Positions 36,923 through 58,265 of a stretch of 64,000 nt of DNA are shown here, piece after piece. The notes beneath the pieces are model-generated. The model was not told where the DNA came from. It saw only the letters and a list, made by a program, of their open reading frames with translations, and ran no database searches. Made by a program: the position numbers and the translations under genes. The stretch lies in contig NZ_QBUG01000006.1 of the NCBI RefSeq assembly GCF_003058225.1, positions 62,001-126,000 of the forward strand, in the 5' to 3' direction. The DNA is from Promicromonospora sp. AC04 (GTDB lineage: Bacteria > Actinomycetota > Actinomycetes > Actinomycetales > Cellulomonadaceae). The number at the start of each line of letters is the position of its first letter. Positions within the stretch are counted from its first letter, which is position 1.

Positions 36923-38014
36923 ATGCAGGAGATGGACGGCACGGCGGACACCGCGGAGCTCAAGCAGCTCTACGCCGACTTCGACACCCACAACCTGTCC
37001 CCGTTGTGGACCCAGCGCGACGACCTCATGCCCTTCACGCCTTCGCCGAAGGCGGTGCCGCACGTGTGGGAGTGGTCCACGCTGTTCGGTCTCGCCGAGC
37101 GGTCGGGCGAGCTCGTGCCCGTGGGGCGCGGGGGCGAGCGGCGGGCGATCGGCCTGGCCAACCCCGGGCTCCCCGGCACGGCCTACGCGACGCCGACCCT
37201 CTGGTGCGCGATCCAGTACCTCGGCGGGTTCGAGACCGCGCCCGAGCACCGGCACAGCCAGAACGCCTTCCGGTTCGTCGTCGAGGGCGAGGGCGTCTGG
37301 ACGGTCGTCAACGGCGACCCCGTCGCGATGCGCCGCGGCGACCTCCTGCTCACGCCGGGATGGAACTTCCACGGCCACCACAACGACACCGACCGGCCGA
37401 TGGCGTGGATCGACGGCCTCGACGTGCCGTTCTCGCACTACGCCGACGTCGGCTTCTTCGAGTTCGGCTCGGAGCGCGTCACCGACGAGGCGTCCCCGGA
37501 CGTCTCCCGCTCCGAGCGGCTCTGGGCCCATCCCGGCCTGCGCCCGCTCAGCGGCCTCGAGGACACCACGAGCTCGCCGCTCGCCGCGTACCGCTGGGAG
37601 CACACCGACCGGGCCCTGACCGAGCAGCTCGCGCTGGAGGACGCCGGGCACCCGGCGACCGTCGGGCAGGGTCATGCCGCCATCCGCTACGTCAACCCGA
37701 CCACCGGCGGCGACGTGATGCCGACCCTGCGCTGCGAGTTCCACCGGCTCCGCGCCGGCGCCTCCACGCCGGTCACGCACGAGGTCGGGTCCTCGGTGTG
37801 GCAGGTGTTCGAGGGCGAGGGCACCGTCGTGCTCGGCGAGAGAGAGCACCGGCTGCACACCGGAGACCTGTTCGCCGTGCCGAGCTGGGTCCCGTGGTCG
37901 CTGCACGCGGACAGCCAGTTCGACCTGTTCCGGTTCAACGACGGCCCGATCGTCGACCGCCTGCACTTCACGCGCACCTACCGCCCCGGCCAGCGAAACG
38001 AGGACCTCGCATGA
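36923..38014 (+). CDS. Gentisate 1,2-dioxygenase
   Basis: The 363-residue protein is a bicupin. The first cupin has the iron-binding HRHSQNAFRFVVEGEG and later FHGHHN; the second has THEVGSSVWQVFEGEG. The N-terminal DFDTHNLSPLW and the length fit gentisate 1,2-dioxygenase, which opens gentisate to maleylpyruvate with Fe(II) and O2. GGAGGAG precedes the ATG. The next genes encode a fumarylpyruvate-type hydrolase and a mycothiol-dependent maleylpyruvate isomerase, which completes the lower gentisate pathway. Confidence 0.92.
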   Translation: MQEMDGTADTAELKQLYADFDTHNLSPLWTQRDDLMPFTPSPKAVPHVWEWSTLFGLAERSGELVPVGRGGERRAIGLANPGLPGTAYATPTLWCAIQYLGGFETAPEHRHSQNAFRFVVEGEGVWTVVNGDPVAMRRGDLLLTPGWNFHGHHNDTDRPMAWIDGLDVPFSHYADVGFFEFGSERVTDEASPDVSRSERLWAHPGLRPLSGLEDTTSSPLAAYRWEHTDRALTEQLALEDAGHPATVGQGHAAIRYVNPTTGGDVMPTLRCEFHRLRAGASTPVTHEVGSSVWQVFEGEGTVVLGEREHRLHTGDLFAVPSWVPWSLHADSQFDLFRFNDGPIVDRLHFTRTYRPGQRNEDLA

Positions 38015-38847
38015 GGCTCGCCACCCTCCGTCTCGGCGAGAGCACCGCCGCCGTCCGCGTCGATGAGCGGGTCGCGGTCGAGATACCGGGCCACGCCGAC
38101 GTCGGCCGCCTGCTCCAGGACCCGCAGTGGGCCTCGGTCGCACGTTCCGCTGACGGCCCGGCGCACGACCTCGCCGGCCTCGACCCGCAGGCCTGGGCGC
38201 AGCCGGTGCTGCGCCCGGCCAAGATCGTCTGCATCGGGCTCAACTACCGCAACCACATCCGGGAGATGGGGCGCGAGCTGCCCGAGCACCCCACGCTCTT
38301 CGCCAAGTTCCCCGAGGCGCTGATCGGCCCGTACGACCCCGTCGTCCTGCCGGCGCACGCCGCGGACGCCGTCGACTGGGAGGGCGAGGTGGCCGTCGTC
38401 GTCGGCCGGACCGCGCGCCGGCTCACCGTGGCGGAGGCCGCGGACGCCATCGCCGGCTACGCCGTGCTCAACGACGTGACGATGCGCGACTTCCAGTACC
38501 GCACCCCGCAGTGGCTGCAGGGCAAGACGTTCGAGGCGACGACGCCGTTCGGCCCCTGGCTGACGACGCTCGACGCCGTCGAGCCGGGGGGCGAGCTGGT
38601 GACGGAGGTCGACGGCGAACCGGTGCAGCGCACACCGATCGACGACATGGTCTTCGGCCCCGCTGCGCTCGTGGCCTACATCTCGCAGATCGTCACGCTC
38701 CACCCCGGCGACGTCATCGCCACCGGGACGCCGGGCGGCGTCGGCCACGCCCGGAAGCCCCCGCGCTACCTCGCGCCCGGGCAGGAGCTGGTCACGTCCG
38801 TCACCGGGCTCGGCACCCTGCGCAACGCCGTCGTCAAGGAGGGCTGA
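38011..38847 (+). CDS. Fumarylpyruvate hydrolase (FAH family)
   Basis: The 278-residue protein has the FAH-fold signature region IGLNYRNHIREMGRELPEHP, the metal ligands in DWEGEVAVVVGR, and GDVIATGTPGGVG. In this operon its natural reaction is cleavage of fumarylpyruvate to fumarate and pyruvate. The ATG overlaps the dioxygenase stop by 4 bp. A second FAH protein is encoded at 50537 in the next catabolic set. Confidence 0.9.
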   Translation: MRLATLRLGESTAAVRVDERVAVEIPGHADVGRLLQDPQWASVARSADGPAHDLAGLDPQAWAQPVLRPAKIVCIGLNYRNHIREMGRELPEHPTLFAKFPEALIGPYDPVVLPAHAADAVDWEGEVAVVVGRTARRLTVAEAADAIAGYAVLNDVTMRDFQYRTPQWLQGKTFEATTPFGPWLTTLDAVEPGGELVTEVDGEPVQRTPIDDMVFGPAALVAYISQIVTLHPGDVIATGTPGGVGHARKPPRYLAPGQELVTSVTGLGTLRNAVVKEG

Positions 38848-38850: not shown

Positions 38851-39657
38851 ATGCCGGCTCGCACCGACCAGGCCACCGATCCGCGGCTCCTTGCGGGCCT
38901 GCTGCTCGCCCGCCGTGGGCAGGCGTACTTCTCCCGCAAGCTCAACGAGCTCCGCAACGACCGGCTGGACGCGCCGTCGCTGGTGGCCGGCTGGACGCGT
39001 CGGCACGTCGTCGCGCACGTCGGACTGAACGCCCGTGCGCTCACCCGGCTCACCGAGTGGGCGGCCACGGGCGTCGAGACGCCGATGTACGCCTCGCCCA
39101 CCCAGCGCGACGAGGAGATCGAGTTCGCCGCGACGCTCCCCGCCCGGGCGCTGCGCAACCTCTGCGCCCATGCAGCTGTGCACCTGGACGTGGAGTGGCG
39201 GGACCTGCCCGAGGAGGCGTGGCGCGCACCGGTGCGCACGGCGCTCGGCCGCGTCGTGCCGGCCTCCGAGACCGTCTGGATGCGGACGCGGGAGGTGTGG
39301 GTGCACGCCGTCGACCTCGACAACGGCGGCTCGTTCGACGACTTCCCGCCCGAGCTGCTCGACGCGCTGCTCGCCGACGTCGTCGGTGCGTGGCGGCGCC
39401 GCCTGGGCCCGGACGGCCTGCCGGCGCTCGTGCTCGAACCCGTCGACCGCGAGGTCACCTACGCGTTGGCGCCGGACGGGACGGCGCCGGACTGGACGGT
39501 GCCGGACGGGACGGTGCCGGACGGGACGGTGCCCAACGGGACGGTGACGGTGCGCGGGACCGCGGCGGACCTGACGCGGTGGGCGACGGGCCGGGGGTCA
39601 CGCGGCCTGGTCACGTCCGATGGCGCGCCCGTGCCCGAGCCGCCGCGCTGGCTGTGA
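38851..39657 (+). CDS. Mycothiol-dependent maleylpyruvate isomerase
   Basis: The 268-residue protein has the DinB-like N-terminal bundle with VAGWTRRHVVAHVGLNARAL and the metal-binding REVWVHAVDLDNG, as in actinobacterial maleylpyruvate isomerase, and a C-terminal MDMPI domain. It converts maleylpyruvate to fumarylpyruvate using mycothiol. The C-terminal domain contains a tandem PDGTV-type repeat (about residues 209-233) encoded by 15-bp DNA repeats, which is not usual for the family. GGAGG lies 8 bp before the ATG. Confidence 0.92.
   Translation: MPARTDQATDPRLLAGLLLARRGQAYFSRKLNELRNDRLDAPSLVAGWTRRHVVAHVGLNARALTRLTEWAATGVETPMYASPTQRDEEIEFAATLPARALRNLCAHAAVHLDVEWRDLPEEAWRAPVRTALGRVVPASETVWMRTREVWVHAVDLDNGGSFDDFPPELLDALLADVVGAWRRRLGPDGLPALVLEPVDREVTYALAPDGTAPDWTVPDGTVPDGTVPNGTVTVRGTAADLTRWATGRGSRGLVTSDGAPVPEPPRWL
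39474..39548 (+). repeat. Five 15-bp tandem repeats inside the maleylpyruvate isomerase gene
   Basis: Units of consensus GGACGGGACGGTGCC run head to tail: two identical central copies, with one to four changes in the others. Being a multiple of 3 bp they encode PDGTV-like pentapeptides in frame, so unit number could change without breaking the gene. Confidence 0.85.
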
Positions 39658-39667: not shown

Positions 39668-40198
39668 ATGACTCAGCGAAGCGAGGTCGCCGCGACCCGG
39701 CCCGACCGGCCCGACGGGCCCGACCGGCCCGAGCGGGCCGACGACGTCGGCGGCCGGCAGTCCCTCTACCTGCCCGAGCACGTCGGCTTCCTCATCCGGC
39801 GTGCTCAGCAGGTGCACCTGGCGGTGTGGGCCGAGGAGGCGGGGCAGGGGCTGAGCAACGTCCAGTTCGGCGTGCTCAACGTGCTGCACCGGACCGGCGG
39901 CGCCAGCCAGCGTGAGCTGTGCGACGCGCTCGACCTGGACCGCTCGACCGTCGCGGGCCTGGTCGCCCGGCTCGAGGCCAGGGGGCTGGTCGAGCGGGCC
40001 AGGGCGGCCGCGGACCGCCGCCGCAACCTCGTCCGGCTCACCGAGGCGGGCGGCGCCGAGCTGCGCCGGCTCGTGCCGCACGCGGCCCAGGTGGACGCCT
40101 CGCTCACCGCCGGCCTCACGGAGCAGGAGCAGACCACCCTGCGCCGCCTCCTCACCAGAATCCTGGACACCCACGGCCACCACGCGCCCGCCACCTGA
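39668..40198 (+). CDS. MarR-family regulator of the gentisate operon
   Basis: The 176-residue protein has a MarR winged helix (GGASQRELCDALDLDRSTVAG recognition region; RAAADRRRNLVRLTEAG wing). The first 30 residues are an Arg/Pro/Asp-rich arm from repeated cccgaccgg-like DNA. It lies 10 bp after the isomerase gene, so it is the fourth gene of the gentisate operon and the likely regulator of it. The ATG at 39668 lacks a clear ribosome site. Confidence 0.87.
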   Translation: MTQRSEVAATRPDRPDGPDRPERADDVGGRQSLYLPEHVGFLIRRAQQVHLAVWAEEAGQGLSNVQFGVLNVLHRTGGASQRELCDALDLDRSTVAGLVARLEARGLVERARAAADRRRNLVRLTEAGGAELRRLVPHAAQVDASLTAGLTEQEQTTLRRLLTRILDTHGHHAPAT

Positions 40199-40205: not shown

Positions 40206-40261
40206 TGACCATGCGGTTGCTACCGGTACCGGCCGGTGATCCGGCAGCAACCGCGTGGTCA
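40206..40261. terminator. Bidirectional terminator between marR and the TauABC-type operon
   Basis: TGACCATGCGGTTGCT (40206-40221) and AGCAACCGCGTGGTCA (40246-40261) pair at 15 of 16 positions across a 24-base GC-rich loop. The right arm includes the stop codon of the convergent ATPase gene. It separates two converging operons. Confidence 0.75.
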
Positions 40262-41071
40262 GCTGGTTGGGCGGGGAAGCGGCGTCCGGGCGCCGCGTTT
40301 GGCGTGCTGGATCTGCTCGTGGACGTGCGTGCGCAGCTCGGTGAACCGGGGCAGGGCGCGGGTGGAGATCTGGTCGCGTGCGGCCGGCAGGTCGACGGCC
40401 AGGTCCTCCTGGACCACCGTCGGCGAGCTCGACAGCACCAGCACCCGCTCGCCCAGGTACACCGACTCGTCGATGTCGTGGGTGACGAAGATGACGGTGA
40501 CCCCCAGGTCCTGCCACACGCGCCGGACCAGGTCCTCCAGGTCGGCGCGGGTCTGCGCGTCGACGGCCGCGAACGGCTCGTCCATGACGAGCACCTCCGG
40601 CTGGTACGCGATGGCCCGGGCGATCGCCACCCGCTGCTGCATGCCACCGGACAGCTGCCACGGGAACGACGCGAGGGCCTGGCCCAGCCCGACCTCCTCG
40701 AGAGCCGCCCGGACGGCCTGCTCCCGCTCGTCGCGCGGTACCCCGCGCGCCTTGAGCGGCAGGCCCACGTTGTCCCGCACGCTGAGCCACGGGTACAGGC
40801 TGCGTCCGTACTCCTGGAAGACGACGGCCATCTTCTCGGGCGGCGCGAGCACGGCCTGCCCGTCGAGCAGCACCGACCCGGTCGTCGGGCTGAGCAGCCC
40901 CGACAGGCACTTGAGCAGCGTCGTCTTACCGCAGCCCGAGGGGCCGACGATGCAGACCAGCTCGCCCGCCCGGACGTCGAAGCTGATGGACCGGATCGCC
41001 TCGACCTCGCCCGTTCCCACCGGGTAGGTCTTGCCGAGGTCCCGTACGGACAGTGTTCCCGTGTCAGCCAC
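40259..41071 (-). CDS. ABC importer ATPase (TauB/SsuB type)
   Basis: The 270-residue protein has Walker A GPSGCGKTT, the Q-loop VVFQEYGRSLYPWL, signature LSGGMQQR, Walker B VLVMDEPF and H-loop VTHD. It is closest to nitrate/sulfonate/taurine/aromatic-acid importers. GTG at 41071 follows GAGG at 7 bp and overlaps the permease stop. It energises a transporter with one intact and one frameshifted permease. Its position beside the gentisate operon suggests an aromatic acid or sulfonate substrate. Confidence 0.9.
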   Translation of the reverse strand: MADTGTLSVRDLGKTYPVGTGEVEAIRSISFDVRAGELVCIVGPSGCGKTTLLKCLSGLLSPTTGSVLLDGQAVLAPPEKMAVVFQEYGRSLYPWLSVRDNVGLPLKARGVPRDEREQAVRAALEEVGLGQALASFPWQLSGGMQQRVAIARAIAYQPEVLVMDEPFAAVDAQTRADLEDLVRRVWQDLGVTVIFVTHDIDESVYLGERVLVLSSSPTVVQEDLAVDLPAARDQISTRALPRFTELRTHVHEQIQHAKRGARTPLPRPTS

Positions 41072-41861
41072 GTGCCACCTCTCTCATGCCGTGGTACCAG
41101 TGCAGGACGCGCCGTTCGGCGATCCCGTAGAGCGTCGCCACCGCGACGCCGATGAGCCCGAGCAGCACGATGCCGCTCCACATCTGGGCGATCATGAAGC
41201 TGCGCTGGAAGTAGACGATCCGGTAACCGAGCCCCGACGACGACGCGAACATCTCCGAGATCACCATGAGGATCAGCCCGATCGACAGGCACAGGCGGAT
41301 GCCGGCCATGATCTGCGGGCTCGCGGCAGGCAGCACCACGTAGCGCAGCGACAGCGCACCCCGGACGCGGTAGGAGCGGGACGTCTCGGTGAGCACCGTG
41401 TCGACGCCGCGCACCCCCTCGACGGTGTTGAGCAGCACGGGCCACACGCAGCCCGAGACGATGACGGCGATCCGCATCGAGTCCCCGACGCCGAGCATCA
41501 GCATGAGCACAGGTACCAGCACGACGGGCGGGACCGCGCGGAAGAACTCGAACAGCGGCTCCAGCAGGTCCCGCAGCCACCGGGTCGTGCCGATCGCGGT
41601 GCCGGCGACGACTCCGATGACTATCGACAGCAGCACGCCGACCGCGAACCGGCCCAGGCTCGGCAGCACGTCGGTCGTGAACGCCGGGCCGAACCAGGTG
41701 GCGGCGAAGGCGTTCGCGATGGTCCCCGGCGGCGGGAAGTAGATCGAGGCCGACCGGTCCGTGGCCAGGGCCCAGGCCAGCAGCGCGAGCGCGGGCAGCC
41801 CGGCCGCGTACCCGACGGCGCGCAGCGCCCCTGCTACAGGCCGGAGCCGGGTCCGCGTCAT
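41064..41861 (-). CDS. ABC importer permease (TauC/SsuC type), intact copy
   Basis: The 265-residue protein has six helices and the BPD_transp_1 coupling loop ETSRSYRVRGALSLRYVVLPAA. The C-terminal LHWYHGMRE resembles LLHWHPSVR of the neighbouring permease, so the two are paralogues that could form a heterodimer. GGAGGAGG precedes the ATG, which overlaps the stop of the frameshifted permease by 4 bp. Confidence 0.9.
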   Translation of the reverse strand: MTRTRLRPVAGALRAVGYAAGLPALALLAWALATDRSASIYFPPPGTIANAFAATWFGPAFTTDVLPSLGRFAVGVLLSIVIGVVAGTAIGTTRWLRDLLEPLFEFFRAVPPVVLVPVLMLMLGVGDSMRIAVIVSGCVWPVLLNTVEGVRGVDTVLTETSRSYRVRGALSLRYVVLPAASPQIMAGIRLCLSIGLILMVISEMFASSSGLGYRIVYFQRSFMIAQMWSGIVLLGLIGVAVATLYGIAERRVLHWYHGMREVARG

Positions 41862-42699
41862 CGTGCCTCCTCCCTGCGCACCGAGGGGTGCCAGTGCAGC
41901 AGACGCCGCTCGACCCTGCGGGTCGCGAGGTTGACGAGGATGCCGAGCCCGCCCGTGACCAGCACCAGCGCGTAGAGGCCCGGCGCGTCCGGGGCGGACC
42001 GGTAGAGCTCGATCTGCCGTCCGAGGCCCGGGTTGCCGATCACCAGCTCGGCCGTGATGGTCAGGACCAGGCCACCGACGCGGCGAGCCGGAACCCGGTG
42101 ATCACGTACGGCAGGGCCGTCGGCAGCACGAGGTGGCGCAGCCGGTCGAGCCGGCCGAGCCCGTAGCTGCGGGCGGTGTCCCGGGCGACCGGGTCGACGT
42201 CGGCGACGCCGTGCAGCACCTGGACGAATACCTGCCAGAACGGCGCGTACACGACCACCATGAGCGCGGCCTCCCGGGACAGCCCGGCGACGAGCACGGC
42301 GAGCGGGATGATCGCTACCGAGGGGATCGGCCGCAGGAACTCCACGCTGCTGTGCGTGGCCCGCTCGAGGAACGGTACGAGCCCGACGACGGCCCCCAGC
42401 GCGATCGCGGCGACGACGGCGATCCCCAGCCCGGCCGACCACGTGATGACCGTGTCGCCCAGGGTGACCCAGAAGTCCGGCGTGGTGAGCTCACGGCCGA
42501 GCCGGAGGAGCGTCGTCGAGGCGGTCGGCAGGTAGGTGCGGCTGACCACCTCCAAGAGGGCAACGACCTCCCAGGCGAGCAGGAACCCGCCGATCCCCAC
42601 CAGGCCGAGCGCCCGCCGCCGTCCCGCCGGCGCCCGTCGCGCCGGCCGGGACACCGCGGTGCGGGATCGGGCGATGGATCCGGTCAGCGATGCCATCAT
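41858..42699 (-). pseudogene. ABC importer permease with a one-base frameshift
   Basis: From ATG 42699 the frame encodes a normal TauC/SsuC-type permease as far as ITGFRLAASVA and then reaches a stop at 42063-42061. The family continuation (VLTITAELVIGNPGLG ... LLHWHPSVRREEAR) resumes in the next frame and ends at 41858. Reading the last C of GCC twice (GCC TGG to GCC CTG) restores one 280-residue protein, so one C is missing near 42070-42073. The start overlaps the binding-protein stop and the end overlaps the next permease start, so the operon is otherwise intact. It is a real lesion or a sequencing error. Confidence 0.85.
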
Positions 42700-43667
42700 T
42701 CGGCGAGGATCGCGTCGACGTCCGGGGCTTCCTGGAAGTATTCGTACTGGACTCCCAGGTCGGCCAGCGCCTCGATGGTGGCCGCGTCGACCGCCGTGGT
42801 GAAGCGCGGCAGCGGCAGGTTCGCCGCGGCCTCCGCGGGGATCTCGAGGTTGTCGACGAGCGACTGGCGGACGGCGTCGTCGTTCTCCTCGGCCCAGGTG
42901 AACGCGTCGGCCAGCGCCGCCCGGACGTCGGCGACCAGCTCGGGGTCCTGCTCGACGGTCTGGGTGGTCGTCTGGACCACGAGGGTGGGCAGCCCGGGGA
43001 TGACCGCCTGATAGGGGTAGACGACCTTGGTGCCGCCCGCTCCGGTGATCATGGAGACGAAGGGCTCCGGGACCCACGCGGCGTCGATGTTCCCGGCCTC
43101 CAGCTGGGCCGCCGCGTCGGGGAAGGCCACCTCGACGAACTCGATGGCCGCGGGGTCCCCGCCGTCCTGTTCGACGGCGGCCCGGATGGTGAGGTCTCCC
43201 GCCGCGCCGAGGGAGTTGACCGCGACCTTCGCGCCCGCGAGGTCGGCCGGCCGGACGATGTCCGAACCCGCGCCCGCGACCACGGCGTTGATGTCGTCGC
43301 CGTCGGGGTAGCTCTCGGCGTACCCGGCCACGATCGCGACCGGCAGCCCCTGCTCGGTCGCCCGCAGGGCGCCGAACGGCTGCCCGATCATGAGGTCGAC
43401 GTCGCCGTTGATCAGCGCGGGCATCGCCTGAGCGCCGCCCTGGATCGGCTGGACGGTCACGTCGAGCCCGTGCTCGGCGAACACGCCGGCGTCGACGGCG
43501 GCCCACAGCGGCGCGGTCTCGCTGATGGTCAGCGCGCCGATCGTCACTGCCCGGGTGCCGTCCTGGGTGGTCTCGCCGGGATCTGCGGCGTCAGCGCCGC
43601 AGGCGGCCAGGCCCAGGCCCAGCAGGACCGTGCAGGCGGCCAGAACGACGGAACGTCGTCGGCTCAT
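42696..43667 (-). CDS. Solute-binding lipoprotein (TauA/SsuA/NMT1 type)
   Basis: The 323-residue protein has a lipoprotein signal with LAAC (Cys23) and an NMT1-like domain (APLWAAVDAGVFAEHGLDVTV; MPALINGDVDLMIGQPFGAL). Proteins of this kind bind sulfonates, thiamine precursors or aromatic acids. GGGGAA lies 7 bp before the ATG. It is the first gene of the importer operon and is divergent from a PaaX-type repressor, across a strong inverted repeat, which suggests uptake of the substrate degraded by the neighbouring enzymes. Confidence 0.88.
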   Translation of the reverse strand: MSRRRSVVLAACTVLLGLGLAACGADAADPGETTQDGTRAVTIGALTISETAPLWAAVDAGVFAEHGLDVTVQPIQGGAQAMPALINGDVDLMIGQPFGALRATEQGLPVAIVAGYAESYPDGDDINAVVAGAGSDIVRPADLAGAKVAVNSLGAAGDLTIRAAVEQDGGDPAAIEFVEVAFPDAAAQLEAGNIDAAWVPEPFVSMITGAGGTKVVYPYQAVIPGLPTLVVQTTTQTVEQDPELVADVRAALADAFTWAEENDDAVRQSLVDNLEIPAEAAANLPLPRFTTAVDAATIEALADLGVQYEYFQEAPDVDAILAE

Positions 43668-43811
43668 GAGGGTTCCCCAATTCGTCGTTGAATCGTGAGG
43701 CTGCGAGAAATGCATGACACTTGCGCGTACAGAGTGCAGCCAACATGTCATGCATGTCAACGGCCTCGGCTCTTCACTCCTGTCCGGAGCACCTCTGGAA
43801 TACTCCAGGGC
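43668..43811. promoter_or_regulatory. Divergent control region of importer and paaX-like gene
   Basis: ATGCATGACA (43710-43719) and TGTCATGCAT (43746-43755) are perfect inverted 10-bp copies 26 bp apart; a further ATGTCAA follows at 43754-43760. CTGGA-ATAC-TCCAG (43795-43808) is a second small palindrome just before the paaX-like ATG and contains a -10-like AATACT, so that gene may be leaderless and self-controlled. Confidence 0.6.
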
Positions 43812-44669: not shown

Positions 44670-44817
44670 CATTCGACTTTCTCATGACGGGCGTCACGAA
44701 ACTGCTTGACGTCGTGCGGGTCGGTGGGGCACGATCGAAGCCTCGCCGACGGTCGGCCGCCTGAACCTCGCCTGAGGCTCGGGAGTCGACCGAGGCCCGC
44801 CCACGAGGATGTGAGCA

Positions 44818-50536: not shown

Positions 50537-51397
50537 ATGAGGTTAGCCAGCACCGTCGACGCCCGCCTGCACGCCGTCGTCCAGGACCGTCTCGTCGACC
50601 TGACCGATGCCCTGGGAATTGCCGGGCCCGGACCGGGCGGTCCGCTGCTCGCGTACCTGGAGCGCGGCGGCACCCTGGCCGAGCTCGCCGCCCTGGACCT
50701 GGACGGGCTGCCGAGCCGCCCGCTGGACGGCACCCGGCTCGCGGCGCCGATCGCCCGCCCGGGCAAGGTCGTCGGCGCACCGGTCAACTACCTGGACCAC
50801 AAGGCCGAGATGGGCGAGCAGAAGACCATCGCCGAGTACGGCGTGTTCCTCAAGGCGAGCTCCTCGGTCATCGGGCCCTCCGATGCGATCCGGCTGCCGT
50901 ACAGCGACGTGCGGACCGACCAGGAGGGCGAGCTGGCCGTCGTCATCGGACGGACGGCCAGCCGCGTGGACGCCGCCGACGCGCTCGACCACGTGCTCGG
51001 CTACGCCCCGACCCTGGACATCACCGTGCGGTCCACCGAGGACCGTTCGACGCGCAAGTCGTTCGACACGTTCACCCCGTTCGGCCCGTGGATCACCACG
51101 GCCGACGAGGTGGGCGACCCCGGCGACCTGGAGCTGCGCTGCTGGGTGGGCGGGGAGCTGCGCCAGCAGGTGCTGACCAAGGAGCTGATCTTCGACGTCG
51201 CGCAGCTCGTCGCGTACGCCAGCCACGTCATGACCCTGTACCCCGGGGACGTCATCGCGACGGGCACCCCCGCGGGGGTCGGCCCGATCGCCGCGGGACA
51301 ACGCGTGGTGGTCGAGATCGACCGGCTCGGCCGGCTCGACGTCCCGGTGACCGCCGACGGGGCCATCCCCTACGGCAGCCGCCCGGGTGCACGATGA
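50537..51397 (+). CDS. FAH-family hydrolase (second copy)
   Basis: The 286-residue protein has the FAH region APVNYLDHKAEMGEQ, metal ligands in DQEGELAVVIGR and GDVIATGTPAGVG. The family hydrolyses or isomerises C-C bonds of ring-cleavage products such as fumarylacetoacetate, fumarylpyruvate or 2-hydroxyhepta-2,4-dienedioate. Here it leads an operon with a CoA ligase and a flavin monooxygenase, so its substrate is probably an aromatic ring-fission product. It overlaps the next gene by ATGA. Confidence 0.88.
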   Translation: MRLASTVDARLHAVVQDRLVDLTDALGIAGPGPGGPLLAYLERGGTLAELAALDLDGLPSRPLDGTRLAAPIARPGKVVGAPVNYLDHKAEMGEQKTIAEYGVFLKASSSVIGPSDAIRLPYSDVRTDQEGELAVVIGRTASRVDAADALDHVLGYAPTLDITVRSTEDRSTRKSFDTFTPFGPWITTADEVGDPGDLELRCWVGGELRQQVLTKELIFDVAQLVAYASHVMTLYPGDVIATGTPAGVGPIAAGQRVVVEIDRLGRLDVPVTADGAIPYGSRPGAR

Positions 51398-53502
51398 CGG
51401 CGACCTGGGCCGGCGACGGGCCCGTGGACCCGTCCGCGCCGTCGGCGCAACCGCTGGAGGCCCTGTTCCGGCCGCGCAGCATCGCCGTCGTCGGCGCCTC
51501 GGCCAGCCCCGACAAGGCCGGGTACGCCATGATGCAGGCGCTCGACGGCTTTGCCGGCGAGCTGCACCCGGTCAACCCCCGCGGCGGCACCATCCTCGGC
51601 CGCGCCGCCGTGGCCGGCCTCGGTGAGCTGCCCGGCCCGGTGGACCTCGCCGTCCTCGTGGTCCCGCCGCAGGTCGTCCCGCGCGCGATCGAAGAGGCGG
51701 CGGCAGCGGGGGTGCGGGCCGCCGTCGTGTGCGCCGGCGGCTTCGCCGAGAGCGGCCCCGAGGGCGTTGAGCTGCAGGAGCAGGCCCTTGAGGCGGCGCG
51801 GCGCGGCGGCATCCGGCTCCTCGGCCCGAACACGTCCGGCTTCATGAACCCGGTCGACGGCGTGTCCGCAAACTTCATGCCCGCCGCCGCCGCGCTGCGG
51901 CCCGGCACGGTGGGGGTCGTCGCGCAGTCCGGCGGCGTCAACCTCGCGATCGCGTTCCTCCTGGAGCGTGCGGGCATCGGCCTGCGCCTCGGCGTCGGTC
52001 TGGGCAATGCGGCCGACGTCGGCTTCCCGGACCTGCTGGACTTCTTCGCGGACGACGACGCCACCACCGCCGTCGGCCTGCACGTCGAGGGCATAGCCGA
52101 CGGCGCCGAGGTCGTCGCGGCCCTGCGCCGCGTCACGGCCCGCAAGCCCGTGGTCGCCTTCAAGGTCGGGCGCTCCGACGTCGGCGACTTCGCCAGGTCG
52201 CACACCGGCTCGCTCACCGGCTCCTACGAGCTGACCCGCGCCGCGCTCGCGCAGGCGGGAGCGGTAGTCGTCGACGGGCTCGACGAGATGGTGGCCGCCC
52301 TCCAGGCCCTCCGCTCCGTGCGGCTGCCCGCGGCACCCCGGTCCGCGACCGGCGTCGCGGTGCTCACCGGCCAGGCCGGGCCCGGCCTCGTCGTCGCCGA
52401 CGCGCTCGGCGCCCGGGGCGTCCGGGTCCCCGAGCTGGCACCCGCGACCCTCGACCGGCTCGGGGAGCTCCTGCCGCCGCTGACCTACCAGCGCAACCCG
52501 GTCGACACCGGGCGGCCCTCGGCCACCTTCCCCGCCGTGCTGCGCCTCGTCGCCGCCGAACCCGGGATCGACGCCGTCGGCGTGTACGCGCTCGACGAGC
52601 CCGGCGTCCTGGACCCCGTGAGCGCAGTCGAGGGCGCGGTCGGCCGGGTGCTCTACGCCACCGGGGGACCCGCCGCCGTCGTCGAGGAGCACCGGGCGCG
52701 GCTGGAGAAGCTCGGCGTGCCGCTCTACGCCAGCCCCGGCGACCTCGCGATCGGGCTCGCCGCCCTGGTCAGCGACGCCGCCGCCCGCGCGGTACCCGAC
52801 GCGCCGCCCGTCGCCGCCACGCGGACCGTCGGGCGCGACCTGGACGAGGACGAGGCAAAGACGCTCTTCGAGGCCAACGGCCTGCGCACCATGCGCCGGC
52901 GCGCGGCCGCGGACCGGGCCTCCGCCCACGACGCCCTGGACGAGCTCGGCGGACCGGAGAACCCGGTGGTCGTCAAGGTCCTCGACGCCGCGGTGCTGCA
53001 CAAGTCCGACGTCGGCGGGGTGCACGTCGGGGTCCGCGGCCACGCGGAGCTGGACGCGGCCGTCGACGCGATCGACACGATCGACGGGACCTCCCCACGG
53101 CGTTACCTCGTCGAAGAGCAGGCGCCCGGCGGCACCGAGCTCATCGTCGGCGGGGTCCGCGACGCCGTCTTCGGGCCCGTCGTCCTGCTCGGCCTCGGCG
53201 GCGTAGGGGTCGAGCTCGGCAACGAACCCGTCCTGCGCCTCGCACCCCTGTCCGCCGAGCGCGCCGCCGAGATGGTCGACGCGCTGCCCGCCGCGGTGCT
53301 CGACGGCTTCCGGGGCGCGCCGCCAGTGGACCGCGCCGCGCTCGCGACCACCCTGCTCGCCGTGAGCGACGTGCTCACGCAGCACCACGACATCACCGAG
53401 ATCGATCTCAACCCGGTACGGGTCACCGCCCGCGGACCGGTCGTCCTGGACGCCGTCGTCGTCCGGACCCCAGGAGAGGAGAACCATGTCCAGCACGCCT
53501 GA
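51394..53502 (+). CDS. ADP-forming (NDP-forming) acyl-CoA ligase
   Basis: The 702-residue protein joins a CoA-binding/succinyl-CoA-ligase alpha-like half (FRPRSIAVVGASASPDKAG; VGVVAQSGGVNLAI; the phosphohistidine segment FARSHTGSLTGSYE) to an ATP-grasp beta-like half (VVVKVLDAAVLHKSDVGGVHVGV; TEIDLNPVRV). This is the acetate-CoA ligase (ADP-forming) family, also known with aromatic acids as substrates. It gives the operon a second, reversible way of making a CoA ester. It overlaps the monooxygenase gene by 17 bp. Confidence 0.9.
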   Translation: MTATWAGDGPVDPSAPSAQPLEALFRPRSIAVVGASASPDKAGYAMMQALDGFAGELHPVNPRGGTILGRAAVAGLGELPGPVDLAVLVVPPQVVPRAIEEAAAAGVRAAVVCAGGFAESGPEGVELQEQALEAARRGGIRLLGPNTSGFMNPVDGVSANFMPAAAALRPGTVGVVAQSGGVNLAIAFLLERAGIGLRLGVGLGNAADVGFPDLLDFFADDDATTAVGLHVEGIADGAEVVAALRRVTARKPVVAFKVGRSDVGDFARSHTGSLTGSYELTRAALAQAGAVVVDGLDEMVAALQALRSVRLPAAPRSATGVAVLTGQAGPGLVVADALGARGVRVPELAPATLDRLGELLPPLTYQRNPVDTGRPSATFPAVLRLVAAEPGIDAVGVYALDEPGVLDPVSAVEGAVGRVLYATGGPAAVVEEHRARLEKLGVPLYASPGDLAIGLAALVSDAAARAVPDAPPVAATRTVGRDLDEDEAKTLFEANGLRTMRRRAAADRASAHDALDELGGPENPVVVKVLDAAVLHKSDVGGVHVGVRGHAELDAAVDAIDTIDGTSPRRYLVEEQAPGGTELIVGGVRDAVFGPVVLLGLGGVGVELGNEPVLRLAPLSAERAAEMVDALPAAVLDGFRGAPPVDRAALATTLLAVSDVLTQHHDITEIDLNPVRVTARGPVVLDAVVVRTPGEENHVQHA

Positions 53503-54724
53503 GACCGACGGGGTCCGGGAGCGCGAGACGCTCGTCGTCGGCGCGGGGCCGGTCGGCCTGACCGCCGCCCTGGCGTTGCGGTCGTTCGGCCGTCCGGTGA
53601 CCGTCCTGGAGGCCGGGCCGGACGGGCGGCAGCGGCCGGGCAGCCGCGCGATCTTCACGCACAGCCAGACACTCCAGATCCTCGACCGGCTCAGCCCCGG
53701 GCTCGGCGCTCAGCTGTACGAGCACGGCGTCTACTGGAACACCCAGCGCACGTTCTACGAGGGCAAGGAGGTCTACGCCAAGACCTACCCCGACCCCGCG
53801 CCGGGCACGTACCCGCACTTCACGAGCCTGCCGCAGGTGCAGACCGAGCGGTACCTCTACGAGCGGGCGGTCGCCGCCGGCGTCGAGTTCGCCTGGGAGC
53901 AGGAGGTCGACGAGCTCGTCGCCGACGACGACGGCGTGCGGCTCACCACCCTGGGCGGCGACCGCTGGCAGGCCAAGTACGTGATCGCAGCGGACGGCTC
54001 GCGCTCGGCCGTGCGCAAGCAGATCGGCGCCCGGATGGAGGGCGGACGCGACGACGGCTGGTACATCGTCGTGGACGTCGACGAGATCGACCGGCCCACG
54101 CTGCCCCAGGAGCGGCACTTCCACTACGCCCACCCCGCGGTCCAGGGCCGCAACGTCCTCGTCGTGCCGTTCGCGGGCGGGTACCGCGTCGACCTGCAGC
54201 TGGTCGACGGCGACGACGCGGAGAAGTTCGCCTCGCCCGACGGCGTGCGCATCTGGCTCGACGCGGTGCTCCCGCCCGGGTACGGGGAGCGCACCTCGTG
54301 GGTCTCGACCTACCAGTTCCTCCAGCTCGTCGCGCACGACTTCGCCGATCCCGCCCGCCGGGTGCTGCTCGTCGGGGAAGCGGCCCACCTCTTCGCGCCG
54401 TTCGGCGCGCGAGGCCTCAACTCGGGCGTGCCCGACGCCGAGGCGGCCGCGTCCGCCGTCGTCCTGGCGCTCGCGGCGGGCACCCGGGAGTCGGCGCGTA
54501 CGGCGGTGGAGTCGTTCGCCCTCGCCCGCCGCTCCGCCGCGCTGTTCAACCGGGACGCCGCGGGGGAGGCGCTGGCGCACCTGCGCCCTTCGCCCGAGCG
54601 GGCCGGCGAGGTCCGGGCGGCCGCCGAGCAAGCCCCGCAGAACGAGGCGGCGTCCAGCTGGCTCGAGAAGGCGCCCTACGGACCACGCGGTGTGCACACG
54701 GCGCAGACCGTCTACCGGTACTGA
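53486..54724 (+). CDS. FAD-dependent aromatic monooxygenase
   Basis: The 412-residue protein has the Rossmann FAD motif VVGAGPVGLTAALAL, the DG motif IAADGSRSAVR and the GD-type motif GEAAHLFAPFGARGLNSGV, the set of class A hydroxylases such as 3-hydroxybenzoate 6-hydroxylase, MhpA and PHBH. It would add one oxygen to a phenolic ring with NAD(P)H. With gentisate dioxygenase encoded 16 kb away, ring hydroxylation to gentisate is a good candidate reaction, but the exact substrate is not fixed by sequence. GGAGAGGAG precedes the ATG. Confidence 0.9.
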   Translation: MSSTPETDGVRERETLVVGAGPVGLTAALALRSFGRPVTVLEAGPDGRQRPGSRAIFTHSQTLQILDRLSPGLGAQLYEHGVYWNTQRTFYEGKEVYAKTYPDPAPGTYPHFTSLPQVQTERYLYERAVAAGVEFAWEQEVDELVADDDGVRLTTLGGDRWQAKYVIAADGSRSAVRKQIGARMEGGRDDGWYIVVDVDEIDRPTLPQERHFHYAHPAVQGRNVLVVPFAGGYRVDLQLVDGDDAEKFASPDGVRIWLDAVLPPGYGERTSWVSTYQFLQLVAHDFADPARRVLLVGEAAHLFAPFGARGLNSGVPDAEAAASAVVLALAAGTRESARTAVESFALARRSAALFNRDAAGEALAHLRPSPERAGEVRAAAEQAPQNEAASSWLEKAPYGPRGVHTAQTVYRY

Positions 54725-54737: not shown

Positions 54738-55655
54738 ATGTCTCTCCTCGGCAACGTGCACGTGGCCTCCGTGGTCGCGCTCGGAATGCAGCGGCTGTCC
54801 ACCGTCGGCCTCCGGCTGGCATCGCGCGGCAAGCCGACGCCGTTCCCCGAGTGCCGCGCGCAGATCGACGAGGTCAGCGTCCCGACCTCGGTCGGACCGG
54901 CCACGGCGTTCGTCTACCGCCCCCTCGACCGGGCCGACGACCTGCCGGTGCACGTCAACTTCCACGGCGGCGGGTACGTCATGCGGGACGCGGCGCTCGA
55001 CGACCCGCTCTGCCGGTACCTCGCCGCCGAGGCCGGGGTGGTCGTCGTCAACGTCGACTACGCCGTCGCGCCGCAGCACAGGTTCCCCGCACCGGCGCAC
55101 CAGGCCTACGAGGTGGTGCGGTGGGTCGCCAACCACGGGGGCGACCACGGCTGGGACGGGACACGGCTCACGGTCGGCGGCCAGAGCGCGGGCGGCGCGC
55201 TCGCGGCGGCCGCGGCGCGCCAGGCCCTCGAGCGGGGCGATCCCCGCATCGCGCTCCAGGTCATCCACTACGCACCCCTGGATCTGGTCACCCATGCCCG
55301 GGACAAGGAGTCGGTCGGCCCCAACCCGCTGATCAAGCCCTGGATGGGCGACGTGTTCGACAACGCCTACATCCCGGACCCGGCGATGCGCTCGGACCGC
55401 CTCGCCTCGCCGGGCAACGCCGCCGACGTCGCCGACCTGACCGGCATCGCGCCCGCGGTGGTCGTGACCTGCGAGCTGGACCGGCTCCGTGGTGACGGCG
55501 CGGCCTACGCGCGGCGGCTGCGCGACGCCGGAGCCCTGGTCACCCACGTGGACGTCCCGGGCGTCGACCACGCCTACGACATGACCGACATCGAAACGGC
55601 CCGGCGCACGTACGCGCTGATCGCCGAGCACCTCAGAGAAGTTTCTCAACGATGA
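54738..55655 (+). CDS. Alpha/beta hydrolase (HSL/acetyl-esterase family)
   Basis: The 305-residue protein has the oxyanion motif HGGGY, the nucleophile elbow GGQSAGG, and the catalytic Asp and His in CELDRLRGDG and GVDHAYD. It belongs to the hormone-sensitive-lipase-like esterases. It would hydrolyse an ester or lactone, perhaps to release the aromatic acid. ATG at 54738 follows AAAGG by about 10 bp and lies 13 bp after the monooxygenase stop. Confidence 0.88.
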   Translation: MSLLGNVHVASVVALGMQRLSTVGLRLASRGKPTPFPECRAQIDEVSVPTSVGPATAFVYRPLDRADDLPVHVNFHGGGYVMRDAALDDPLCRYLAAEAGVVVVNVDYAVAPQHRFPAPAHQAYEVVRWVANHGGDHGWDGTRLTVGGQSAGGALAAAAARQALERGDPRIALQVIHYAPLDLVTHARDKESVGPNPLIKPWMGDVFDNAYIPDPAMRSDRLASPGNAADVADLTGIAPAVVVTCELDRLRGDGAAYARRLRDAGALVTHVDVPGVDHAYDMTDIETARRTYALIAEHLREVSQR

Positions 55656-55665: not shown

Positions 55666-57162
55666 ATGACCATCACCGACAACCCCGCAGAAGTTGCCAG
55701 CGGCGTGCACTTTCCCCCCGGACGGCTGTTCGTCGGTGGCGAGTGGCGCGAGGCAGCCGACGGCGGACGACGCGACGTGATCAGCCCGGCGACGGGCCGG
55801 GTGATCTCGTCGGTGGCCTGGGCCGGGACGACCGACGTCGACGCGGCCGTCGCCGCCGCGCGCGAGTCGTTCGACTCCGGCGTCTGGTCGCGGCTGAGCG
55901 GCCGCGAGCGGTCGCGCGTCCTGCTCAAGGCCGTCGAGATCCTTCGTGAGCGCCGTGAGGAGCTCGCGCAGCTGGAGAGCCACGACGTCGGCAAGCCGAT
56001 CACGTTCGCGCGGATCGTCGACGTCGAGCACGCGATCCTGCAGTTCGAGTACGCGGCGAGCCTCGGCCAGCACCTGGACGGCTCGGTCCGGGAGATCCCG
56101 GCCAACGCCCATGCATACATCCGCAAGGAGCCGATCGGCGTCGTCGCCGCGATCACGCCCTTCAACTTTCCGCTGATCCTGTCCTCGACCAAGATCGCCC
56201 CGGCGCTCGTCGCCGGGAACTCAGTGGTCCACAAGCCGGCGAGCGACACCCCGCTCAGCGCGCTGTTCATGGCCCAGGTGCTCAAGGACGCCGGCGTCCC
56301 GGACGGCGTCTTCAACGTCGTCACGGGCTCCGGCGCGAGCCTGGGGGACCACCTCGTCGGCCACCCGCAGGTCGACAAGGTCGCGTTCACCGGGTCGACG
56401 GAGGTGGGTGCACACGCCGCGGCGCTCGCCTCGCGCACCCTCAAGCCGTTCACGGCGGAGCTCGGCGGCAACGCGGCCAACATCCTGTTCGCCGACGCCG
56501 ACCTCGACAAGGCGATCGGCACCGTGATCGGCGCGTTCGTCTTCAACGCCGGCCAGTTCTGCATGGCCGGGCCGCGTCTGCTCGTCGAGCGGCCGATCTA
56601 CGACACCGTGCTGGGCATCCTGGGCCAGGCGGTCCCCGGCGTGCCCTTCGGCGACATCACCGACGACGCCACCGTCGTCGGACCGCTCGCCAGCCAGAAG
56701 CAGCTCGACAAGGTCACGGCCCTGGTCGAGTCCGCGCGCCGCGACGGCGCGCAGGTGGTGTGCGGCGGCGAGCAGGCCGACCTGGGCGGCGGGTTCTACT
56801 ACCGGCCGACGGTCCTGGCCGGCCTGTCGTCGGACGCGGAGTGCGTCCGCGAGGAGGTGTTCGGGCCGGTCCTCACGGTCCAGCCCTTCGACACCGAGGA
56901 CGAGGCCGTAGCGATGGCGAACGGCACGGCCTACGGCCTGGCCTCCGGCATCCAGAGCTCGGACATCGCGCGTATCCACCGCGTGGCCAAGCGGCTCGAC
57001 GCCGGGATCTGCTGGGTCAACGGTTGGGCCGTGCTCGACCCGGCGGTCCCCTTCGGCGGGGTCAAGGCGTCGGGGTGGGGCCGGGAGTACGGCCCTGAGG
57101 CGCTGGCGTCCTACCAGCGCACCAAGTCCATCGTCATCGACCTCGGGGAGGACCCGGCATGA
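55666..57162 (+). CDS. Aldehyde dehydrogenase
   Basis: The 498-residue protein has the ALDH set: ITPFNFPLIL, FTGSTEVGAH, catalytic Glu in TAELGGNAANIL and catalytic Cys in NAGQFCMAGPRL, and late REEVFGPVLTV. It is like aryl-aldehyde (vanillin, benzaldehyde) dehydrogenases and would oxidise an aldehyde to the acid with NAD(P)+. GAGAGGA precedes the ATG. Its stop overlaps the alcohol dehydrogenase start by 4 bp. Confidence 0.9.
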   Translation: MTITDNPAEVASGVHFPPGRLFVGGEWREAADGGRRDVISPATGRVISSVAWAGTTDVDAAVAAARESFDSGVWSRLSGRERSRVLLKAVEILRERREELAQLESHDVGKPITFARIVDVEHAILQFEYAASLGQHLDGSVREIPANAHAYIRKEPIGVVAAITPFNFPLILSSTKIAPALVAGNSVVHKPASDTPLSALFMAQVLKDAGVPDGVFNVVTGSGASLGDHLVGHPQVDKVAFTGSTEVGAHAAALASRTLKPFTAELGGNAANILFADADLDKAIGTVIGAFVFNAGQFCMAGPRLLVERPIYDTVLGILGQAVPGVPFGDITDDATVVGPLASQKQLDKVTALVESARRDGAQVVCGGEQADLGGGFYYRPTVLAGLSSDAECVREEVFGPVLTVQPFDTEDEAVAMANGTAYGLASGIQSSDIARIHRVAKRLDAGICWVNGWAVLDPAVPFGGVKASGWGREYGPEALASYQRTKSIVIDLGEDPA

Positions 57163-58265
57163 GCACCACCACCAGGGCCGCGGTCCTCACCGCGCCCCAG
57201 ACGCCGTTCACCGTGCGGGACGTCGAGCTCGCCGAGCTGCGTGCGCACGAGGTCCTCGTGCGGATGGTCGCCACCGGCGTGTGCCACACCGATCTGGGCG
57301 TGTGGGCCGGCGGCATCCCGTTCCCGCTGCCCGGGGTCATCGGCCACGAGGGCGCCGGGGTGGTGGAGCAGGTCGGCCCGGCGGTGACCACTGTCGCCCC
57401 GGGGGACCAGGTGGTGCTGAGCTACACGTCCTGCGGCGACTGCCCGGCGTGCCTGGACGGCCACCCGGCCTACTGCGCCACCTGGCTGCCCCGGAACCTC
57501 TTCGACGGGGCGCGCGAGGACGGGACGGCGACGCTCTCGATCGACGGCGCTCCCATCGGCGGGCACTTCTTCGCCCAGTCGTCGTTCGCCGAGCACGCGA
57601 TCGCCGAGGAGCGCAACGTCGTCGTCGTGGATGCCGACGCCGACCTCGCAGGTCTCGCCCCGCTCGGGTGCGGGGTGATGACGGGCTTCGGATCGGTGTG
57701 GAACGCGCTGGACGTCCAGCCCGGTGCGCGGGTCGCGGTGTTCGGGGCGGGCGCGGTCGGCCTGTCGGGAGTGGTGGCCGCGGCCCTGCGCGAGCCGGGC
57801 CTGCTCATCGCCGTCGACGTCGTGCCGGAGCGGCTCGAGCTGGCGGCCGAGCTCGGCGCCACGCACACGATCAACGGCCGGGACGAGGACGTGGCCGCGC
57901 GCATCGCGGAGTTCACCGCCGGCGCCGGCCTGACCCACGCCTTCGACACCACCGGGGTGCCCGCAGTGGCGCGGTCCGCGATCGACGCCCTCGGCGCACG
58001 GGGCCACCTGGTCACCTGCGGCGCTCCGCCGCCCGGGACGGAGATCCCCGTGGACTTCCAGGGCATCCTCCCCGGCAAGTCGGTCAGCGGCGTGACGATG
58101 GGCGACGCCGACCCGAAGGTCCTCGTCCCGCAACTCGTCGAGCTCGTGGCCGCCGGCCGGCTACCGCTCGGGCGGCTCGTCAAGCAGTACAAGCTGTCCG
58201 AGCTCGACGCGGCCTTCGCCGACATGCACCACGGCACCACTGTCAAGCCGGTCATCGTGCACTGA
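57159..58265 (+). CDS. Zinc-dependent alcohol dehydrogenase (aryl-alcohol type)
   Basis: The 368-residue protein has the catalytic zinc region GVCHTDLGVWAG and GHEGAGVVEQVG, the structural-zinc cysteines in SCGDCPACLDGHPAYC, and a Rossmann motif VFGAGAVGLSGV. It is like benzyl-alcohol/aryl-alcohol dehydrogenases of the MDR family. Coupled to the preceding aldehyde dehydrogenase it would take an alcohol to the acid. It is the last gene of the operon and ends at a strong hairpin. Confidence 0.9.
   Translation: MSTTTRAAVLTAPQTPFTVRDVELAELRAHEVLVRMVATGVCHTDLGVWAGGIPFPLPGVIGHEGAGVVEQVGPAVTTVAPGDQVVLSYTSCGDCPACLDGHPAYCATWLPRNLFDGAREDGTATLSIDGAPIGGHFFAQSSFAEHAIAEERNVVVVDADADLAGLAPLGCGVMTGFGSVWNALDVQPGARVAVFGAGAVGLSGVVAAALREPGLLIAVDVVPERLELAAELGATHTINGRDEDVAARIAEFTAGAGLTHAFDTTGVPAVARSAIDALGARGHLVTCGAPPPGTEIPVDFQGILPGKSVSGVTMGDADPKVLVPQLVELVAAGRLPLGRLVKQYKLSELDAAFADMHHGTTVKPVIVH

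Follow-up and report, generated by a model that had tools for sequence, protein, structure and literature searches.

Gene content of the island

The stretch analyzed here (the window) comprises 64,000 nucleotides of the soil actinobacterium Promicromonospora sp. AC04 (assembly GCF_003058225.1, contig NZ_QBUG01000006.1, positions 62,001 to 126,000), whose genome is 6.85 Mb in 26 contigs. Between about 36.9 and 58.3 kb of the window lies an island of about twenty genes, in which candidate enzymes for CoA-dependent side-chain shortening stand beside enzymes of gentisate ring fission. A preliminary description of this DNA had named nine enzymes for a route from a hydroxycinnamate-type acid to central metabolites, and all nine are open reading frames where it placed them and carry the family signatures it assigned. 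Every gene that it named is present, but it omitted FAH2 (50537-51397) and an ADP/NDP-forming acyl-CoA synthetase (51394-53502). The genes were described as three operons; the layout is instead four multi-gene units plus two PaaX genes, and within each unit the genes overlap or nearly abut, as read from their coordinates. The reported absence of an acyl-CoA dehydrogenase was borne out, with five matches to PF00441 in the genome and none in the window. The enzymes of the gentisate, shortening and hydroxylase units are listed below.

36923..38014, + strand: gentisate 1,2-dioxygenase (GDO), a bicupin, with Ala at the Gly106 position of salicylate dioxygenase
38011..38847, + strand: FAH1, fumarylpyruvate-hydrolase candidate (PF01557), missing from the unit in P. 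panici
38851..39657, + strand: mycothiol-dependent maleylpyruvate isomerase (TIGR03083, PF11716)
44818..46464, + strand: AMP-forming acyl-CoA ligase (PF00501; PRK07798-like, below cut-off)
46461..47672, + strand: thiolase, with Cys91, His358 and Cys388 invariant in six members
47757..48245, + strand: MaoC enoyl-CoA hydratase candidate (PF01575)
48242..49174, + strand: SDR, 3-hydroxyacyl-CoA dehydrogenase candidate (PF13561)
49158..49532, + strand: hotdog thioesterase (YbgC/4HBT-type)
50537..51397, + strand: FAH2, nearest to a haloarchaeal FAH encoded beside a hydroxylase
51394..53502, + strand: ADP/NDP-forming acyl-CoA synthetase, alpha and beta parts fused (PF13380, PF13607, PF13549; TIGR02717 below cut-off)
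53486..54724, + strand: FAD ring hydroxylase, candidate 4-hydroxybenzoyl-CoA 1-hydroxylase (PF01494)

Conservation of the island

Searching named genomes with the thiolase as lead gene gave 139 confirmed relatives, and the best 80 loci were kept; the closest by thiolase are Promicromonospora species (93%). Fourteen of these loci were compared for synteny, a check that the preliminary description had proposed: two from Promicromonospora, one each from Isoptericola and Antribacter, six from Cellulomonas, two from Actinotalea, and two from order-level metagenome-assembled genomes (MAGs). The order thiolase-MaoC-SDR-PaaX2-FAH2 is kept in all fourteen. The ligase occurs in 13/13 loci with that side in view, and the synthetase and hydroxylase occur in 13/13 and 11/11, respectively, of the stretches that reach them. 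GDO is present in 10 of the 14 loci; three stretches end before its position, and the C. phragmiteti locus (L023) shows weak MarR matches but, within the 1.6 kb covered, neither isomerase nor GDO. FAH1 accompanies GDO in nine of these ten loci, the exception being P. panici. The hotdog gene (9/14), the importer (10/13) and the esterase (3/11) are more variable.

In genome G283, ten core genes are contiguous, at 78-96% identity, without the importer, MaoC, SDR, hotdog, PaaX2, esterase, aldehyde dehydrogenase (ALDH) and alcohol dehydrogenase (ADH) genes. The missing hydratase and dehydrogenase could be raised as an objection to beta-oxidation, which was dismissed: about 390 kb away, a second locus holds paired genes for an SDR (62%) and a MaoC (46%) beside importer genes (74% for the ATPase, 44% for the binding protein). 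Relocation of the two enzymes, together with the importer, is thus more likely than their loss. The SDR-MaoC pair accompanies either the thiolase or the importer. Because the order recurs in 14/14 loci and a compact ten-gene core is found in G283, the arrangement is far beyond chance, and the gene set is one conserved island in Cellulomonadaceae. Synthetase, hydroxylase and thiolase genes also lie side by side in Nonomuraea.

Gentisate ring fission

The isomerase and FAH1 adjoin GDO in a single unit, and the assignment of the downstream ring-fission enzymes (GDO and the isomerase) is well supported by sequence comparison. The isomerase scores 198 bits against C. glutamicum Cgl3021. The top-scoring structures for GDO are PDB 3nst (603 bits; labelled gentisate 1,2-dioxygenase) and 2phd, a group that we take to be the Pseudaminobacter salicylate 1,2-dioxygenase and its mutants; the NCBIfam score, 250, is under the TIGR02272 cut-off of 442. 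The positions of Arg83, Trp104 and Asp174 are kept as far as the alignment shows. Despite the best scores to 3nst and 2phd, a function as salicylate 1,2-dioxygenase was rejected, because Ala replaces Gly106 in the window GDO and in all 11 relatives compared. A salicylate dioxygenase mutant with this Gly106-to-Ala change has reportedly been described as a model of conventional GDO. The Gly106 numbering is that of the extract consulted of PMC10306065.

In Promicromonospora panici (L013, 1214-3117) the isomerase directly follows GDO with no FAH1 between them, and FAH2 is kept. FAH2 may therefore be able to replace FAH1 at the fumarylpyruvate step.

Probable side-chain shortening

Candidates for a ligase, a hydratase, a dehydrogenase and a thiolase occur together in one unit, a set with which thiolytic shortening would need no acyl-CoA dehydrogenase. 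Cys91, His358 and Cys388 of the thiolase are the expected catalytic residues and are unchanged across the six aligned members. The thiolase is rare, being found, own genome included, in 3/297 genomes of the order at E 1e-40 and 4/394 genomes of the class at E 1e-60. Among the best 25 of 1483 plasmid records matching it, one relative (Pseudonocardia) shares 45% and the others 28-30%.

The neighbors of more distant thiolases bear on the substrate. A feruloyl-CoA-synthase-type (PRK12582-like) ligase, counted at 40% identity and 60% coverage, lies within the stretch at 32 of the 66 thiolase loci outside the fourteen, and 29 of the 42 thiolase-locus stretches of at least 15 kb carry this ligase or an orthologous SDR. 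Eight of the 15 plasmid homologs listed of that ligase are annotated as feruloyl-CoA synthase, and three members were placed by profile. These neighbors support, without proving, hydroxycinnamoyl-CoA as the substrate of thiolysis. CoA-dependent side-chain shortening of a hydroxycinnamate is fairly well supported, and its feeding into gentisate is well supported by the shared conservation of the two parts.

The FAD hydroxylase and its relatives

The synthetase gene is directly upstream of the gene for the FAD hydroxylase, a protein of 412 residues with a FAD_binding_3 domain and a best NCBIfam match far under cut-off. The best 25 of 74 NCBIfam matches of the hydroxylase include no model for 3-hydroxybenzoate 6-hydroxylase or salicylyl-CoA 5-hydroxylase, and the enzyme is not among the own-genome matches to the 3-hydroxybenzoate 6-hydroxylase family NF006021 at E 1e-20. 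The NF006021 cut-off is not reached by any further protein of this genome (best 163 vs. 459), but none of 14 control genomes, C. glutamicum included, reaches it either, so it is too strict to exclude such an enzyme elsewhere in the genome. The best solved-structure matches are rifampin monooxygenases, PnpA and VibO, the last two of which are ipso-hydroxylases acting para to a phenol. The structure predicted by AlphaFold from 11 sequences was of too low a quality to be used (pLDDT 61). The flavin motif GARG[LM]NSG is present in 30/30 family rows compared, in the longer form GEAAHL[FL]APFGARG[LM]NSG in 23/30; own-genome paralogs with a readable motif have GDAAH and no GARG. In a quick tree the haloarchaeal hydroxylases form one clade, the other branch order is poorly supported, and the bacterial hydroxylase L124 groups with own-genome paralogs at 0.16 support. 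The hydroxylase is rare in the phylum (4/396 genomes at E 1e-55, own included).

The best plasmid matches listed are haloarchaeal (45-50% identity over 94-98% of the query) and from Streptomyces (49%). Twelve loci were sampled from the 18 haloarchaeal rows among the best 25 of 568 matching records, with stretches of 9 kb on each side; two of them (L096 and L142) have almost the same gene order, and the gene tables of the plasmids are not complete. An FAH gene and a CoA-binding/ADP-forming ligase each occur near the hydroxylase at 10/12 loci, an AMP ligase at 7/12, and a GDO-like cupin and a thioesterase each at 6/12. Of the six cupins, three were compared with GDO by sequence and three are so called by name. 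The three haloarchaeal FAHs compared (L093, L095, L097) are 43-47% identical to FAH2 vs. 32-33% to FAH1. Furthermore, the hydroxylase stretch at L095, L137 and L140 carries a hydroxyacyl-CoA dehydrogenase and a thiolase-type gene paired with an OB-fold partner, which looks like an independent assembly of the shortening and hydroxylase combination; domains were checked for L137, which also holds a CoA ligase.

Other relatives indicate which ring the enzyme may act on. On a Halorussus caseinilyticus plasmid (L138, 8354-11238), a gene for chorismate pyruvate-lyase, which makes 4-hydroxybenzoate, adjoins the hydroxylase gene, with a MenA-type prenyltransferase alongside; this trio suggests that some haloarchaea use the hydroxylase in a quinone-like biosynthesis. 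A Streptomyces plasmid (L094) holds a relative in a cluster with genes named aminodeoxychorismate synthase, class IV aminotransferase and desaturase, and in genome G313 a relative lies close to a gene encoding GATase and chorismate-binding domains, for which Pfam cannot separate 4-aminobenzoate from anthranilate synthase. An adenylate-forming gene is immediately 5' of the hydroxylase gene in all four further actinobacterial loci (L094, L123, L124, L125), where tailoring chemistry of a kind not yet recognized, on activated 4-aminobenzoate, is possible. Taken together, these neighbors point to a para-hydroxy- or para-aminobenzoyl thioester as the hydroxylase substrate.

As a separate observation, the clusters of hydroxylase relatives look biosynthetic in at least two cases, with nonribosomal peptide synthetase domains in L124 and 4-aminobenzoate and desaturase genes in L094.

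Regulators and promoter repeats

PaaX-like control had been proposed for the island. Two PaaX-type regulators are indeed present, together with one MarR, and conserved repeats lie in the promoters near them.

39668..40198, + strand: MarR regulator (PF12802)
43812..44669, + strand: PaaX1 repressor candidate (PF07848, PF20803, PF08223)
49522..50433, - strand: PaaX2 repressor candidate (PF07848, PF20803, PF08223)
36876..36891: CGTTGGCATGCCAACG, a perfect palindrome of the GDO promoter and probably the operator for the cluster's MarR
43715..43759: TGACA...TGTCA...TGTCA repeats in the importer/PaaX1 spacer, candidate PaaX site, in 11/11 importer-bearing rows
44685..44696: TGACGGGCGTCA inverted repeat, then TTGACGTC, in the ligase promoter, candidate regulator site
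50478..50513: TGACA-N26-TGTCA inverted repeat in the PaaX2/FAH2 spacer, candidate PaaX operator

The PaaX N-terminal, central and C-terminal domains were found in both PaaX1 and PaaX2. Of 12 aligned promoters, 10 hold the complete 16-mer of the GDO-promoter palindrome, CGTTGGN4CCAACG, and all 12 hold its core, GTTGGN4CCAAC. When CGTTGGN4CCAAC was sought on both strands of 17 sequences, 12 had one site each, at the GDO start, and five had none. As a bare motif the palindrome is not significant, since at least one near match arose in 15/100 shuffles of the window, and the genome holds one other copy, equal to the reversed control; the case for it as a MarR site thus rests on conservation. The ligase-promoter repeat TGACGN2CGTCA occurs in 14/15 rows, with two matches in the window vs. 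0.17 expected. The TGACA-N26-TGTCA spacing is identical in 14 of 15 PaaX2-bearing rows, and the fifteenth row ends at the edge. The PaaX2 alignment leaves out the G283 row, and the PaaX1 alignment is without L014, L015, L016, L029 and G283 (no importer, or the wrong gene or spacer caught); in the ligase-promoter count, L018 stays in as a miss. MarR would pair with the GDO palindrome and the PaaX proteins with the TGACA and TGACG repeats.

The second TGACGN2CGTCA of the window, at 4539, is inside a long inverted repeat, TTGACAATGACAAG...GACGGTCGTCATCTTGTCA (4519-4558), outside the island.

Importer and accessory genes

The remaining genes of the island are the importer unit and three genes past the hydroxylase.

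40259..41071, - strand: importer ATPase, SsuB/TauB type (PF00005)
41064..41861, - strand: importer permease 1 (PF00528)
41858..42690 (outer bounds approximate), - strand: importer permease 2, frameshift near 42070
42696..43667, - strand: NMT1/SsuA-type solute-binding lipoprotein (PF09084; TIGR01728 below cut-off)
54738..55655, + strand: alpha/beta hydrolase (lipase/esterase) (PF07859), not core
55666..57162, + strand: ALDH (PF00171), not core
57159..58265, + strand: Zn ADH (TIGR03989-like), not core

The importer, ADH and ALDH had been suggested to complete an upper path. The importer genes are present, permease 2 with a frameshift. ALDH and ADH fall outside the conserved set: they are lineage-specific, occurring in only two of the 11 relatives' loci that extend past the hydroxylase, both Promicromonospora, so they are not counted as core and were rejected as an upper path. 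Haloarchaeal loci hold an ALDH too, with 37-40% identity for the two that were compared.

The neighbors outside the island are ordinary sugar-uptake genes: an alpha-L-rhamnosidase upstream (31569-34439) and, downstream (58625-63790), sugar-ABC-like genes with a LacI-type regulator, recognized from their sequence, one binding protein also by Pfam.

A proposed route through gentisyl-CoA

From the genes, their families, conserved linkage, catalytic residues and promoter repeats described above, we infer a substrate, hydroxylation at the CoA level, an NIH shift, a direction for the synthetase and a pairing of regulators with sites. The island may be a catabolic route for a hydroxycinnamate, a phenolic acid of plants and most likely p-coumarate, via 4-hydroxybenzoyl-CoA and an acyl shift to gentisyl-CoA, then gentisate, and finally fumarate and pyruvate; we favor this reading tentatively, at somewhat less than an even chance. 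p-Coumarate would be imported and joined to CoA by the AMP-forming ligase, p-coumaroyl-CoA would be hydrated by MaoC and the product oxidized by the SDR, and the thiolase would then cleave it to 4-hydroxybenzoyl-CoA and acetyl-CoA. The FAD hydroxylase would act on the CoA thioester, with C1 hydroxylation and acyl migration (NIH shift) giving gentisyl-CoA. Gentisate would be released by the ADP-forming synthetase running toward ATP and, in many members, also by the hotdog thioesterase; release is assigned chiefly to the synthetase because it is present in every member reaching it, whereas the hotdog gene is missing in 5/14. GDO, the mycothiol-dependent isomerase, and FAH1 and/or FAH2 would complete the conversion to fumarate and pyruvate. 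The two PaaX-type repressors are predicted to sense aryl-CoA and to govern the importer, ligase and FAH2-hydroxylase units, with MarR governing the gentisate unit.

Several observations weigh against this route. None of eight counted markers is found at 29 of the 66 other thiolase loci (10/42 of the stretches of at least 15 kb), and many of the loci positive for feruloyl-CoA-synthase-type ligase are close Acidovorax/Variovorax relatives and thus not independent. Six of the 12 haloarchaeal loci have no GDO-like cupin and five have no AMP ligase. Importer permease 2 is split by one frameshift in the window and is intact in Promicromonospora panici and a Micrococcales MAG; the frameshift could be a sequencing error or the mark of a decayed gene. 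The genome also encodes, at about 267-273 kb of G000:C8 (L132), a PobA-family 4-hydroxybenzoate 3-monooxygenase, which scores 451 bits against a cut-off of 351, together with a PcaR/PobR-type regulator and genes resembling pcaB and pcaD (both below their cut-offs), a separate protocatechuate branch. Free 4-hydroxybenzoate should therefore go to protocatechuate, and why this ring should have another route calls for an explanation. So does the usual retention of two FAHs. Finally, the evidence for the ring position is indirect, and 3-hydroxybenzoyl-CoA is a possible substrate of the hydroxylase.

This last point leads to an alternative that uses the same gene set, in which shortening of 3-hydroxycinnamate yields 3-hydroxybenzoyl-CoA or 3-hydroxybenzoate, which the FAD enzyme hydroxylates at C6, likewise para to the hydroxyl, to reach gentisate with no migration. 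Haloferax degrades 3-hydroxybenzoate and cinnamate via gentisate, according to an extract of PMC4005966, but the window hydroxylase lies outside the 3-hydroxybenzoate 6-hydroxylase family matches, and its relatives adjoin a 4-hydroxybenzoate maker or accompany 4-aminobenzoate genes. We consider this alternative unlikely, although it retains some weight. A start from 2-hydroxycinnamate is very improbable: salicylyl-CoA would be hydroxylated at C5 as in the sdg pathway, where SdgC converts salicylyl-CoA to gentisyl-CoA (extract of PMC13215587), and a ligase and a thioesterase are at hand; the salicylyl-CoA 5-hydroxylase model is nevertheless absent from the best 25 of 74 matches noted above, and the Ala at the Gly106 position makes direct fission of salicylate by GDO unlikely. 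Of the preliminary description, then, CoA-dependent thiolytic shortening joined to gentisate fission stands, the two being conserved together, but the suggested growth substrates (2- or 3-hydroxycinnamate, salicylate, 3-hydroxybenzoate) are probably not the right ones, because they suit an ordinary 3-hydroxybenzoate or salicylate hydroxylase, whereas the window enzyme shows neither model among its best 25 of 74 matches and the neighbors of its relatives point to a para-substituted benzoyl group.

Two further explanations concern the order of steps and the unity of the island. The thioester could be released before hydroxylation, the synthetase or thioesterase freeing hydroxybenzoate and the FAD enzyme using the free acid, as classical flavin hydroxylases do; the synthetase gene does precede the hydroxylase gene. 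An acyl-activating gene directly 5' of the hydroxylase gene in the window and in 4/4 further actinobacterial loci argues for a thioester substrate instead, and the genome already has a free-acid enzyme of the PobA family, so that early release seems a poor prospect. The island could also be two unrelated neighbors, an operon for short- or medium-chain acyl-CoA oxidation beside a gentisate operon, given that the best NCBIfam match of the ligase is a general acyl-CoA synthetase subfamily (below cut-off) and that the thiolase and SDR are generic by profile. Such a coincidence is hard to credit when the order is kept in 14/14 loci and is compact in G283, when links of synthetase and hydroxylase with a thiolase or thioesterase are seen again in Nonomuraea and haloarchaea, and when the window has no acyl-CoA dehydrogenase.

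Comparison with known systems

The proposed route through 4-hydroxybenzoyl-CoA has partial counterparts elsewhere. Archaeal 4-hydroxybenzoate metabolism with an NIH shift was reportedly described by Fairley in 2002. Gentisate is its product in the part consulted of PMC10815724. The haloarchaeal routes (4-hydroxybenzoate with NIH shift in Haloarcula D1; Haloferax D1227) share GDO-type fission with the island, and haloarchaeal plasmid loci share a related FAH2, ADP-forming synthetase and FAD hydroxylase, their tie to the D1 and D1227 routes being a candidate one. They differ in belonging to another domain of life, in beta-oxidation genes that are ECH/HADH-type (L137) rather than MaoC/SDR, and in a GDO-like cupin only about 28-29% identical to the window GDO in the three compared. 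The Brevibacillus phgABC genes reportedly encode 4-hydroxybenzoyl-CoA ligase, 1-hydroxylase and gentisyl-CoA thioesterase; the proposed CoA-level chemistry with acyl migration would be alike, but the Brevibacillus pathway starts from free 4-hydroxybenzoate and has no side-chain shortening. BH1999 is a gentisyl-CoA thioesterase inside a gentisate cluster (extract of PMC516016). Aryl-CoA ring hydroxylation to gentisyl-CoA is also a feature of the sdg salicylate pathway (extract of PMC13215587), which has no shortening and whose hydroxylase model is absent from the best 25 matches of the window enzyme. The Corynebacterium gentisate operon has the same kind of mycothiol-dependent isomerase; in contrast, the window GDO scores best with 3nst and 2phd, and its unit is coupled to a CoA pathway. 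In the CoA-dependent hydroxycinnamate-shortening routes of Rhodococcus RHA1 (cou) and Agrobacterium, the ring enters by protocatechuate. These routes likewise use a hydroxycinnamate CoA ligase, and the cou repressor senses aryl-CoA (extract of PMC4737184). CouR is a MarR and not a PaaX protein.

The combination of shortening and gentisate fission, which the preliminary description did not recognize, is not wholly without precedent, since Haloferax D1227 uses gentisate as the intermediate for growth on cinnamate and phenylpropionate (extract of PMC4005966). With that use known physiologically, the island is a new variant at the gene level, in which familiar chemistry is combined genetically in a new way and one proposed step is bold. 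Among the papers listed from the open literature, judged by title and the start of the abstract and with subscription papers not covered, no paper was found that joins hydroxycinnamate shortening to gentisyl-CoA.

Implications for Cellulomonadaceae

On these grounds it is possible, though we would stop well short of calling it probable, that Cellulomonadaceae degrade p-coumarate without free 4-hydroxybenzoate or protocatechuate, that an acyl-CoA-shifting flavin hydroxylase yields gentisyl-CoA and an ADP-forming synthetase recovers ATP, and that the synthetase-hydroxylase-FAH module is common to haloarchaea, where it would have been joined independently to other beta-oxidation genes. If true, the island would provide a gene set for an aerobic p-hydroxycinnamate route ending in gentisate rather than protocatechuate, and point to a gene family that may carry out the carboxyl-migrating hydroxylation described in haloarchaea. 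It would also sharpen the generic annotations of haloarchaeal plasmid genes (FAD-dependent monooxygenase, acetate--CoA ligase family protein, CoA-binding protein). Furthermore, an energy-saving step would be predicted, in which the energy of the thioester is recovered as ATP.

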